Shown here piece after piece: positions 60,213 through 63,070 of a stretch of DNA of 64,000 bases. The notes under the pieces are model-generated. The model saw only the letters and a program-made list of their open reading frames with translations, was not told the origin of the DNA and ran no database searches. The stretch is from Collinsella sp. AF08-23 (lineage in GTDB: Bacteria > Actinomycetota > Coriobacteriia > Coriobacteriales > Coriobacteriaceae): the NCBI RefSeq assembly GCF_003479805.1, contig NZ_QUHV01000005.1, forward strand, positions 1-64,000, given 5' to 3'. The translations under genes and the position numbers were made by a program. How positions within the stretch are numbered: position 1 is the first letter of the stretch; every line of letters starts with the position of its first letter.

Positions 60213-61514
60213 TTAGTAATTCACGACCTGGTCGCAAGCAGTGGACTGGGCATCCGCCACGACCTCGAAATGGACATCTTGACCAGCACCGGCGAGCTGC
60301 GCCTGCTTGATGGCCCACGTCTTGATGGAGAGGCCCTGGATGTCGATGAAGCCCTTGGCGGCCTTCTGGTCGAACGCATCGTCGTTGTCGTAGGTGGCGA
60401 GCGCGGGGTCGTACAGGGCAGCGGCGCTCTTGCGGCCCACGACCACGCATCCGCCCTTGTAGAACTTGAGCTTCACCGCGCCGGTGAGATCCTGCTGCGT
60501 GGCGCCCATAAAGGCATCGAGCGCCTGCTTGAAGGGGCTGAACCAACGGCCGTTGTAGACCTGGTCGGCCCAAAGCTGCTCAAGGGCGAGCTTGTGGTGG
60601 AGCACGTCGCGCTCCAGGCACAGATCCTCAAGCGCCTTGTGAGCCTGAATGAGCGCAAGACCCGCCGGGACCTCGTAGCACTCGCGAGACTTGAGACCCA
60701 CGTAGCGGTTCTCGATCATGTCGATGCGGCCGTAGCCGTTCGCGCCTGCGATGGCGTTGAGCTTTGCAATGAGCTCCGCCAGCGGCAGCTCCCGCCCGTC
60801 AAGGCTCGCCGGCACGCCAGCGACGAAGCCGATCTCGACATAGGTGGGCGCGTCGGGCGCGTCAACGGGGTCGACGGTCATCGTCCAGATGTCCGCCGGG
60901 GGCTCCGCCCACGGATCCTCGAGGACGCCGGCCTCGATGGCACGGCCCCAGAGGTTATCGTCGATGGAATACGGCTTCTCGATGCTCTGCGCAACCGGCA
61001 CGCCATGCTTCTGGGCATAAGCAATCTCGTCGGGGCGCATGCCGAGGTCCCACTCACGCACCGGGGCGATGACCTTGAGAGAGGGGTCGAGGGCCGTGAT
61101 GGAGGTCTCGAAGCGCACCTGGTCGTTGCCCTTACCGGTGCACCCGTGGGCAACGCTCGCCGCGCCGTACTTGTGAGCCACCTCAACGAGGTGCTTGGAG
61201 ATCAACGGACGGGACAACGCGGAAAGCAGCGGATACTTGTTCTCGTACATGGCATTGGCAGCAAGCGCGCAGGTGATGTAGTCCGAGGCGAACTCGTCGG
61301 TCATGTCGACCACTTCGACGGCGATGCAGCCGAGCATCTTGGCCTTCTCGGCAACCTTCTCCAGGCCGTCGTGCTCCTGGCCCACATTGCCGAGCATGGC
61401 GATGACGTCGAGACCCATCTCGTTTTGCAGCCATTTTATGCAGACGGAGGTATCGAGGCCGCCAGAATAGGCAAGTACGACTTTTTCCTTGGAGACAGTG
61501 TTCACGGTGTTCAT
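60213..61514 (-). CDS. argG: Argininosuccinate synthase
   Basis: A 433-residue enzyme that joins citrulline and aspartate using ATP. The P-loop is VVLAYSGGLDTSVCIKWL (about residues 12-29), followed by GCTGKGNDQVRFE and the citrulline/aspartate site SRECYEVPAG. The ATG follows AAAGGATG. Upstream, within about 340 bases, are an arginine-rich leader peptide frame and an intrinsic terminator, suggesting arginine control. Confidence 0.97.
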   Translation of the reverse strand: MNTVNTVSKEKVVLAYSGGLDTSVCIKWLQNEMGLDVIAMLGNVGQEHDGLEKVAEKAKMLGCIAVEVVDMTDEFASDYITCALAANAMYENKYPLLSALSRPLISKHLVEVAHKYGAASVAHGCTGKGNDQVRFETSITALDPSLKVIAPVREWDLGMRPDEIAYAQKHGVPVAQSIEKPYSIDDNLWGRAIEAGVLEDPWAEPPADIWTMTVDPVDAPDAPTYVEIGFVAGVPASLDGRELPLAELIAKLNAIAGANGYGRIDMIENRYVGLKSRECYEVPAGLALIQAHKALEDLCLERDVLHHKLALEQLWADQVYNGRWFSPFKQALDAFMGATQQDLTGAVKLKFYKGGCVVVGRKSAAALYDPALATYDNDDAFDQKAAKGFIDIQGLSIKTWAIKQAQLAGAGQDVHFEVVADAQSTACDQVVNY

Positions 61515-61583
61515 GGGTTCATCCTTTCGATATGCCATTCGGCTTGAGAACGGGTGAGCCCAACTGATTGCGATATCCCCACA

Positions 61584-61615
61584 TGGTGCAATTGGGGTAC
61601 GTCCCCATTGCACCA
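61584..61615. repeat. GGGGTACGTCCCC-type hairpin with different arms
   Basis: TGGTGCAAT followed by GGGG (61584-61597) pairs with CCCCATTGCACCA (61603-61615). The core GGGGTACGTCCCC resembles GGGACTGTCCC of the other copies, and the arms are unrelated. It lies between the attenuator and the argG start, 70 bases upstream of argG. Confidence 0.65.
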
Positions 61616-61650
61616 AACGCGCCGCGAGTCGCGTGCGGCCGTTTGGTAAG

Positions 61651-61671
61651 AAAAATCCGCCTTGCGGCGGA
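61651..61671 (-). terminator. Intrinsic terminator in the argG leader
   Basis: Read on the minus strand, TCCGCC (61671-61666), loop GCAA and GGCGGA (61661-61656) are followed by TTTTT (61655-61651), a textbook intrinsic terminator 137 bases upstream of argG and on the same strand. With no other gene between it and the argG promoter region, it is best read as an attenuator. Confidence 0.85.
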
Positions 61672-61701
61672 CCCTCCCTCGACGATATCAGTTGGACTCT
61701 G

Positions 61702-61723
61702 CTTGGAGGACTTGACCTCCAAG
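61702..61723 (-). promoter_or_regulatory. Leader hairpin, possible pause or antiterminator arm
   Basis: CTTGGAGG (61702-61709) pairs with CCTCCAAG (61716-61723), and flanking CTCTG and CAGAG can extend the stem. Its CCTCC on the transcript could alternatively pair with GGGAGGG just before the terminator (61672-61680). That alternative would free the RNA from the terminator fold. Confidence 0.5.
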
Positions 61724-61740
61724 CGAACAGAGACAACGAG

Positions 61741-61854
61741 TTATCGTCGTCGGGAGATTGAACGCTGGCGTCGGGCGGCCGCATCGGCGGCGTTCTGGCA
61801 AGGCATGATGGCGATGTGCGCCATGCCCTCATATGTAGCCAGAAGCTGTGCCAC
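61741..61854 (-). CDS. Arginine-rich leader peptide of argGH
   Basis: A 37-residue frame starting at GTG (61854) with GAAGGGATG upstream, ending at TAA (61743-61741). The last ten residues are RRQRSISRRR, six arginines, encoded by CGA CGC CAG CGT TCA ATC TCC CGA CGA CGA; four of the six are CGA, which seems uncommon in neighbouring genes, where CGC dominates by eye. A hairpin and an intrinsic terminator follow. This is the layout of ribosome-mediated attenuation: scarce arginyl-tRNA would stall the ribosome on these codons. Confidence 0.7.
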   Translation of the reverse strand: MAQLLATYEGMAHIAIMPCQNAADAAARRQRSISRRR

Positions 61855-61893
61855 GGTTACTCATCCCTTCGAAACCAGCCGTGTCAATCGTTG

Positions 61894-61917
61894 GTCACTA
61901 TAGTAGCCTAAAGTGAC
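61894..61917 (-). promoter_or_regulatory. Candidate argG promoter region with inverted repeat
   Basis: On the minus strand, TATAGT (61902-61897) resembles a -10 box, 43 bases ahead of the leader peptide start. It is overlapped by an inverted repeat, GTCACT (61894-61899) and AGTGAC (61912-61917), which could be a repressor site. The -35 box is not clear. Confidence 0.4.
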
Positions 61918-61961
61918 ATCGATTCACGCGACGTTCTGTTATGTTGCGACTTTGTTACCAC

Positions 61962-62078
61962 CCCGTACCCTGGCGCGCATCATCCGGCGCTCGAACAATC
62001 CTGCTCGCACGAAGGCCACATTAAGTGGCCTTCGGCTCGTGCGGAACTCGCGGCGGATGATGCGCGCCAGGGGACGGG
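61962..62078. repeat. Long palindromic repeat, copy B
   Basis: A 29-base left arm (61962-61990) pairs with the right arm (62050-62078) with two mismatches. Between them, read on the minus strand, are AGTTCCGCACGAGCCGAAGG and GGCCTTCGTGCGAGC, the same core as in copy A at 38287-38410 but inverted. The outer arms differ from copy A. It lies upstream of argG. Confidence 0.85.
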
Positions 62079-62130
62079 CTACGGCAACGAATAGAAATTC
62101 CACGTACTACGCCTCTCCCCAAACATGTGC

Positions 62131-62214
62131 CGCGCCCCCTCCGCCCATATCGTCCCGCGCGCAGTTCGCGACAGCGCTGTTTGAGCACGGGATGATATGG
62201 GCGGAGGGGGCGCG
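62131..62214. repeat. Long palindromic repeat, copy C (short loop)
   Basis: A 27-base left arm (62131-62157, starting CGCGCCCCCTCC) pairs with 62188-62214 with a single G-T mismatch at the same place as in copy A (ATATCGTCCCG against CGGGATGATAT). The loop has CGCGCAGTTC and GAGCA, the edges of the copy A loop, but lacks the inner stem. Confidence 0.85.
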
Positions 62215-62243
62215 TTCGCCTTGAAGTGATGAGGTGAAAAACT

Positions 62244-62261
62244 GTTCGAGCGCCGGATGAT
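62244..62261 (+). repeat. Partial copy of the long palindromic repeat
   Basis: GTTCGAGCGCCGGATGAT matches copy B (minus strand) exactly over 18 bases. The complementary arm is missing, so this is a half element. It lies 33 bases before the end of the glnQ-type gene. Confidence 0.6.
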
Positions 62262-62293
62262 ACGGTCCGAGACGCGGGGCGGCGAGCGCCTGT

Positions 62294-63070
<777 letters not shown>

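Follow-up and report, generated by a model that had tools for sequence, protein, structure and literature searches.

The window analysed here, a stretch of 64,000 nucleotides from Collinsella sp. AF08-23, carries argG (argininosuccinate synthase; 61514-60213, ATG at 61514; NCBIfam TIGR00032/NF001770 above cut-off) and argH (argininosuccinate lyase; 60175-58748; NCBIfam TIGR00838 above cut-off) on its minus strand, to which the leader frame, the promoter-like sequence, helices H1, H2, H3 and H7 and the terminator described below also belong. The argG SD, AAGGA, lies at 61526-61522 (read from the sequence). Upstream of it is a frame of 37 codons (61854-61741; GTG...TAA; MAQLLATYEGMAHIAIMPCQNAADAAARRQRSISRRR) with an SD-like AAGGGA at 61869-61864, 9 nt 5' of the GTG (also read from the sequence); purine-rich stretches likewise precede the start in relatives' leaders, as judged by eye. 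The last ten codons (RRQRSISRRR) include six for Arg, of which codons 28, 35, 36 and 37 are CGA. The six fall into a first cluster, CGA CGC CAG CGT (codons 28-31; 61773-61762), which holds the likely sensor codons, and a second, CGA CGA CGA (codons 35-37; 61752-61744), which is also the 5' arm of H1 and H3. The frame, its ribosome binding site and its Arg-rich end agree with an earlier description made from the sequence only (the sequence-only reading).

A putative promoter, CACTTTAGGC-TACTAT (61915-61895), has a -10-like TACTAT at 61905-61900 and no good -35; by eye, the block CTTTAG-N2-TACTAT upstream of the leader is kept in most of the relatives displayed. A sigma-70 scan of 61000-62800 returned zero promoter-like sites, the TACTAT block and the interval between terminator and argG included. 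The leader 5' UTRs of L005, L006, L009, L016 and L118 hold recurring ACCGTTT-/ACCGCTT-like words between promoter and leader, which are absent from the window. Farther upstream on the same strand lies a gene for an amino-acid ABC transporter ATPase (62294-63070; GlnQ/HisP/ArtP-like, below the equivalog cut-offs), and between it and the argG leader are large inverted repeats (61958-62282) with arms at 61962-61990/62050-62078, 62131-62163/62182-62214 and 61958-61997/62243-62282.

This GC-rich window has an appreciable background of Arg-rich frames: of its 855 short frames, 7 have at least six Arg in their last ten residues, and two of these have an SD-like site. The sequence-only reading had held that the match between peptide composition and operon product makes chance unlikely; on composition alone this was too strong, and the case for a leader therefore rests on relatives, where conservation removes the doubt and excludes a chance frame. 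CGA encodes none of the 186 Arg residues of argG (14 loci) versus four of six in the window leader. A Pfam search with the 37-residue peptide, a short query, gave no match at E 0.001, which includes DUF2618 (PF10940), the speF orf34 family.

The nearest genome compared has 21% of words in common with the window, and the first named argG match is from C. intestinalis. Searching with the leader DNA gave matches in 30 of 58 relatives, all 30 of them within the genus. Upstream of argG in Coriobacteriaceae, 59 of 63 loci (duplicates included; 33 distinct sequences) encode the strict motif R[RQ]R-x-I-[SA]-RRR-stop; among the exceptions, L124 has ITRRR, and L108, L125 and L126 are without the motif. 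The leader DNA pattern occurs exactly once per genome in 38 of 42 genus genomes (reversed control, 0), and its single copy in each of these 38 led us to reject the idea that the same leader serves other arg operons. Three of the four genomes without it (G020, G023 and G027) have no argG match; the fourth, G025, has argG.

To describe variation within the frame, we compared 21 of the 33 leaders, having dropped eight short ones of the C. aerofaciens type and those at least 95% identical to a kept one. Over all pairs, differences in codons 28-36 number 59, 54 and 507 at codon positions 1, 2 and 3, and 413 codon differences are synonymous versus 113 nonsynonymous; the N-terminal part of the peptide has no third-position bias. 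Arg is present at codons 28, 29 and 31 in all 21 leaders, codon 31 being CGC in 11 and CGT in 10, while codons 35-37 are invariant and CGA is fixed at 28 and 35-37. The invariance at codons 35-37 is at least partly due to hairpin H1.

Across the order sample, 221 of 247 genomes have an argG match. The argG upstream regions of 70 genomes, chosen from the listed matches, were added to 103 earlier loci and scored by a strict rule (at least five Arg in 17 codons and at least two in-frame CGA-CGN pairs), which 106 of 159 different upstream strings pass in the sense direction, none of 159 in antisense and 0.91% of shuffles (contigs in both collections counted twice). After merging into clusters with no shared 100-mer, 72 of 106 Coriobacteriia clusters have an Arg-rich frame ahead of argG (25 of 29 Coriobacteriaceae, 47 of 77 others; nine of the 72 are argR tails), compared with 0 of 106 in antisense and 0 of 12 in the outgroup; the other 34 lack such a frame by the strict rule. 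In a few passes (e.g., L162 and L163) the frame is close to argG and possibly accidental. Three leader types can be told apart: RRQRAISRRR in Coriobacteriaceae, LRRQxRRxxxRRxR in Atopobiaceae and some Eggerthellaceae, and DRRRR...LRRRR or RLRRR in Eggerthellaceae, the family names of some genomes being inferred from named neighbours. With at most one mismatch, the DNA pattern of the LRRQ type is found in 39 of 247 order genomes (reversed control, five genomes). In L044 (Adlercreutzia equolifaciens) argD is the first long gene met going upstream from the leader. These comparisons support an Arg-ending leader, tied to argG and under apparent selection at the amino-acid level, in three family-level groups of Coriobacteriia (names partly inferred).

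Folding scans and the sequence itself place an intrinsic terminator, TCCGCC-GCAA-GGCGGA-TTTTT (61671-61651), between leader and argG. Its stem-loop spans 61671-61656 and its T5 run 61655-61651, +86 to +90 after the leader stop, in line with the sequence-only reading of a hairpin and then a T5 terminator within 90 bases of the frame; the hairpin in question is H2 (CTCTG...GCTTGGAGG/CCTCCAAGC...CAGAG; 61732-61697; by folding). A simple terminator scan did not list 61671-61651 and gave two other sites, with 1.7 expected. Among the six nearest relatives by argG, the terminator is present in five (L001-L004 and L008) and absent in L013, and L008 shows a compensatory base pair (ACCGCC/GGCGGT). A comparison of Coriobacteriia argG upstream regions, as proposed with the sequence-only reading, finds the Arg-codon runs conserved (the 72 of 106 clusters), but the terminator is not universal: by a loose rule it is clear in 18 of the 33 distinct Coriobacteriaceae leaders, and an Arg frame without it is common. 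By the same kind of rule, terminators follow 15 of 18 LRRQ-type leaders, 7 of 22 argR tails and 4 of 17 other free-standing Eggerthellaceae leaders.

Hairpin H1 (GACGACGA-TAAC-TCGTTGTC; 61751-61732; by folding) contains the last Arg codons and the stop, the Arg codons pairing with TCGTC-like bases past the stop. A hairpin at this position is seen by eye in most Coriobacteriaceae leaders; its mean z over the 33 is -1.33, modest in each. H1, with CGA CGA CGN-stop as its 5' arm, might itself be the attenuator terminator, masked by ribosomes on the Arg codons, so that Arg in the last cluster would in part be a by-product of the stem. Such a role would account for the invariant CGA; the scan lists H1 as terminator-like in the window, and in several Eggerthellaceae (L062, L072, L055 and L146) a U-rich tract follows it. 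However, the tract in the window is only TCTCTGTTCG, the scan found about as many sites as chance would give (2 versus 1.7 expected), and nothing in this role explains why the first Arg cluster, outside H1, is conserved and varies synonymously at codon 31. We consider this role for H1 unlikely.

The same segment has a second partner. In helix H3, TCTCCC..CGACGATA (61757-61742) pairs with TATCGTCG.GGGAGG (61687-61673; duplex -21.9 kcal/mol, z -3.4), and pairing of codon 34 to the stop with bases 41-67 nt downstream recurs in all 33 distinct Coriobacteriaceae leaders; 14 of them reach a z of -3 or lower, and eight of those are of the near-identical C. aerofaciens type. H3 covaries at Ser codon 34, where TCC faces GGG and TCT or GCT faces GAG. 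A longer-range helix, H7, pairs bases 3' of H2 (GAGTCCAACTGAT; 61699-61687) with a segment past the terminator (ATCAGTTGGGCTC; 61568-61556) and so encloses the terminator; it was found as repeat finder pair I4, and its strands coevolve in relatives (own mean -15.5 versus swapped -10.7 kcal/mol; 0 of 20000 permutations; 19 sequences, kinship not corrected). Poor fits in this test were L037, L040 and L004; in L004, with argG 389 nt away, the 3' strand lay beyond the searched interval, and by eye it is GGTTGAGCTC, far from argG. Coevolution is weaker for H3 than for H7 (own pair first in 2 versus 6 of 19; both 0 of 20000 permutations). H3 and H7 are crossing helices, with some overlap between them in several relatives. 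Within the H7 loop, between terminator and argG, there is also a second strong hairpin (GGTGCAATGGGG/CCCCAATTGCACC; 61584-61615). Between the end of H7 and the argG SD downstream of it lie about 30 nt. Sequestration of the argG ribosome binding site by H7 was considered and rejected, as the site is about equally open in the simulated states (11 sequences folded) and the L004 3' strand is distant from argG.

Ribosome-dependent switching was simulated by masking the RNA to 12 nt beyond the A site and computing terminator probability along the leader. In the window this probability is 0.9-1.0 at every simulated ribosome position and no antiterminator was found with the ribosome masks; L001-L003 likewise stay at 0.9-1.0. 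In seven LRRQ-type leaders (L128, L135, L078, L081, L158, L164 and L165) the probability falls on the first Arg clusters and is back at 0.9-1.0 once the stop is reached. Six of the 15 LRRQ-type leaders (the same set without L128) count as switching under a fixed threshold, versus 32 of 300 synonymous randomisations, randomised leaders switching in 12 of 20 cases for L081, 6 of 20 for L078, 6 of 20 for L165 and 0 of 20 for L158. No switch appeared by folding in L131, L134, L136, L137, L076, L162, L168 or L127. Among the Coriobacteriaceae leaders simulated, in L004, L008, L014, L042 and L109 the drop comes at codons one to seven ahead of the Arg cluster, in L109 partly on it (0.6), and L015 drops slightly. 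Terminator switch wiring is thus predicted by the folding model for some LRRQ-type leaders (Atopobiaceae and some Eggerthellaceae). The folding switch in relatives supports attenuation for the class; the antitermination step of the window itself is our inference. The ribosome-mediated arginine attenuator that the sequence-only reading placed before argGH accordingly stands as to its conserved Arg leader and terminator, but lacks an antiterminator among the structures found in the window.

An Arg-sensing leader might instead be read out by something other than an intrinsic terminator, namely Rho shielding or, as with speF, a change in mRNA stability or folding via H3/H7. In tna-like systems, a stalled ribosome shields post-stop RNA from Rho. 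By the loose criterion, an Arg frame stands without a clear intrinsic terminator in 15 of 33 Coriobacteriaceae, 15 of 22 argR-tail and 13 of 17 other free-standing Eggerthellaceae leaders; H7, moreover, is strongly conserved and could form only after readthrough, and its crossing and partial overlap with H3 would suit such a read-out. Against it, a terminator is present in the window and in all but one of its six nearest relatives, C-minus-G maxima past the stop are about equal to those of shuffles, and the openness of the argG ribosome binding site varies little between simulated states. We hold a read-out of this kind to be possible but rather doubtful for the window.

Arginine genes may also answer to a repressor or a T-box. 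No T-box or other Rfam family matches the window at gathering thresholds, none matches 61450-62000 up to E 1, and 13 relative loci gave tRNAs only; an Arg T-box riboswitch was ruled out by this lack of a match. ArgR has a match in every one of the 20 genus genomes examined and in 104 of the 120 in a wider sample. ArgR alone might control argG, and the frame might encode a small peptide that does something else or nothing; leader peptides acting in trans do exist, as excerpts of PMC7298713 describe for peTrpL. Near argC in relatives, AATATGCATT-like repeats are seen by eye (8 displayed; L184 without an obvious one), and those near the argC start of the Collinsella relatives L178, L179, L181, L183, L185 and L187 are possible ArgR boxes. 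With the box consensus so defined by eye from relatives' argC, at most one mismatch gives two matches in the whole window, none near argG. Two genomes of genus g31 (Adlercreutzia by inference), G077 and G085, have no ArgR match, yet G077 carries a free leader, L177 (DRRRRSCGLRRRRA). The lack of third-position bias in the N-terminal part of the peptide also counts against this view. Control by ArgR alone seems very improbable to us; ArgR could control argG too, beside the leader.

In Eggerthellaceae with argR beside argG, ArgR usually ends LRRR-stop, encoded CGA CGA CGN TAR; argR genes directly upstream of argG with CGA CGA CGN stop lie at L053:2322-2750, L063:2286-2729, L047:2337-2765, L072:2282-2812 and like loci. 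A survey of 55 loci (15 chosen for having a tail and 40 of the 53 without a strict-rule pass) found an ArgR-like tail upstream in 35, with LRRR in 29 of these (exceptions L070, L075, L079, L087, L143 and L174); the ArgR end of L169, ...LIVRR-stop, fell outside the script's count. Among 20 further ArgR ends, CGA CGA CGN stop is present in 10 of 11 Eggerthellaceae with argR beside argG and 0 of 6 from other families; in G128, an Eggerthellaceae genome with argR beside argG, ArgR ends ...SLIA-stop without the CGA run. With duplicates removed, a hand count gives 29 of 32 Eggerthellaceae versus 0 of 10 in other or unassigned families. Where argR lies away from argG, CGA CGA CGN is found in none of 18 readable genes (of 20) from Coriobacteriaceae and Atopobiaceae; in Eggerthellaceae, G099 and G140 are without the tail and G068 encodes LRRR as CGA CGT CGT, which makes 0 of 21 with the CGA CGA CGN codons and one keeping LRRR. 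LRRR thus follows family in part, and the CGA CGA run follows position beside argG.

Four tailed genes are ArgR by Pfam, with both domains above cut-off and RRR just beyond the C-terminal domain match. Of 22 Eggerthellaceae argR tails, 21 (all but L149) fold into a hairpin that takes in the stop (mean z -1.25), and in L062, L072, L055 and L146 H1 over the Arg codons and stop, with its U-rich tract, is terminator-like and overlaps the stop codon. We tentatively put forward, leaning slightly against it ourselves, that Eggerthellaceae argR absorbed the attenuator: its last codons (CGA CGA CGN stop, ...LRRR-stop) would be an arginine-sensing leader for the adjoining argG, and a free-standing leader would carry the function where argR is elsewhere or lost (Collinsella, Adlercreutzia). 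Alternatively, the Arg run of the tail may serve only to build H1. In G068, the LRRR of argR (L245) is encoded as CGA CGT CGT and a free leader before argG (L157) ends ARLRRR with CGA CGA CGT; this pair fits argR absorption, with a possible split of one ancestral element. If true, one transcript would hold both a repressor and, in the repressor's tail, a ribosome-read arginine sensor.

Sequence comparison establishes the leader frame and its place, the conservation of the Arg region, the one-per-genome link to argG in the genus, the terminator, the predicted hairpins H1 and H2 and the coevolving H7; translation of the frame is what we infer. Because an Arg-ending frame is kept before argG in many relatives, arginine is probably sensed there by the ribosome. 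We consider it likely that 61854-61741 is a translated leader on which ribosomes sense charged tRNA-Arg, adjusting argG(H) expression. When arginine is short, ribosomes would stall at the CGA/CGC codons within codons 28-31, which would alter the partner, H1 or H3, of the segment from codon 34 to the stop (CCCGACGACGATAA), and more RNA polymerase would pass the terminator at 61671-61651 into argG. With ample arginine the ribosome would reach the stop and the transcript would end at about 61651. In some related LRRQ-type leaders the terminator would be unfolded with the A site on the first Arg clusters and folded at the stop. H7 could form only after readthrough and may add a second layer. If such a conserved arginine-sensing leader operates in this class of gut Actinomycetota, arginine would join the attenuation list, with dual control alongside ArgR, and the class would offer a natural series, some lineages carrying the same Arg-codon run in a free leader and others carrying it at the end of a regulator gene.

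Textbooks treat trp, his, leu, ilv, thr and phe as standard cases of leader-peptide attenuation, and the arginine biosynthesis genes of bacteria are usually assigned to ArgR or T-box control. The argG leader shares with trp/his-type attenuators a short leader frame (with third-position bias and an SD-like site; translation predicted), a run of end-product codons and an intrinsic terminator in front of the first biosynthetic gene; some relatives also have alternative helices, as trp, his, leu and ilv do. It differs in that arginine would be sensed, the codons stand at the very end of the frame and are built into helices, no antiterminator was found in the window and an extra helix, H7, surrounds the terminator. 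In the fungal arginine attenuator peptide (arg-2/CPA1), also an upstream peptide linked to an arginine-making gene, the nascent peptide stalls ribosomes at high arginine; that system is eukaryotic and involves no decoding of an Arg run.

Among Actinobacteria, excerpts of PMC1262725 predict trp, trpS, leuS and ilvB attenuators and describe trp, leu, ilv and cys leaders. A literature search confined to open-licence papers, and therefore weak as to absence, found no bacterial leader peptide for arginine biosynthesis, and no such leader in Coriobacteriia appears in excerpts of PMC1262725, PMC9413887 (his), PMC2965389, PMC6386406 (speF orf34), PMC8632094, PMC4997734 or PMC1183508. A parallel in sensing is Salmonella speF orf34, likewise a short frame upstream of its target, in which successive Arg codons sense arginine and alter how the RNA beyond them folds; according to excerpts of PMC6386406, its target is ornithine decarboxylase, its read-out uses Rho and RNase G, its core is HIRRT and it belongs to Gammaproteobacteria. 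In the actinobacterial LEU element before leuA, as excerpts of PMC1262725 present it, a run of end-product codons pairs with the leuA SD and crossing helices are proposed; the argG leader resembles it in pairing its codon run with downstream RNA and in its crossing helices, whereas the leuA SD itself is paired there and H7 stops short of the argG SD. With ArgR/AhrC repression it shares the pathway, and ArgR exists in these genomes; it differs in being an RNA leader, and many Eggerthellaceae argR 3' ends carry the Arg run themselves.
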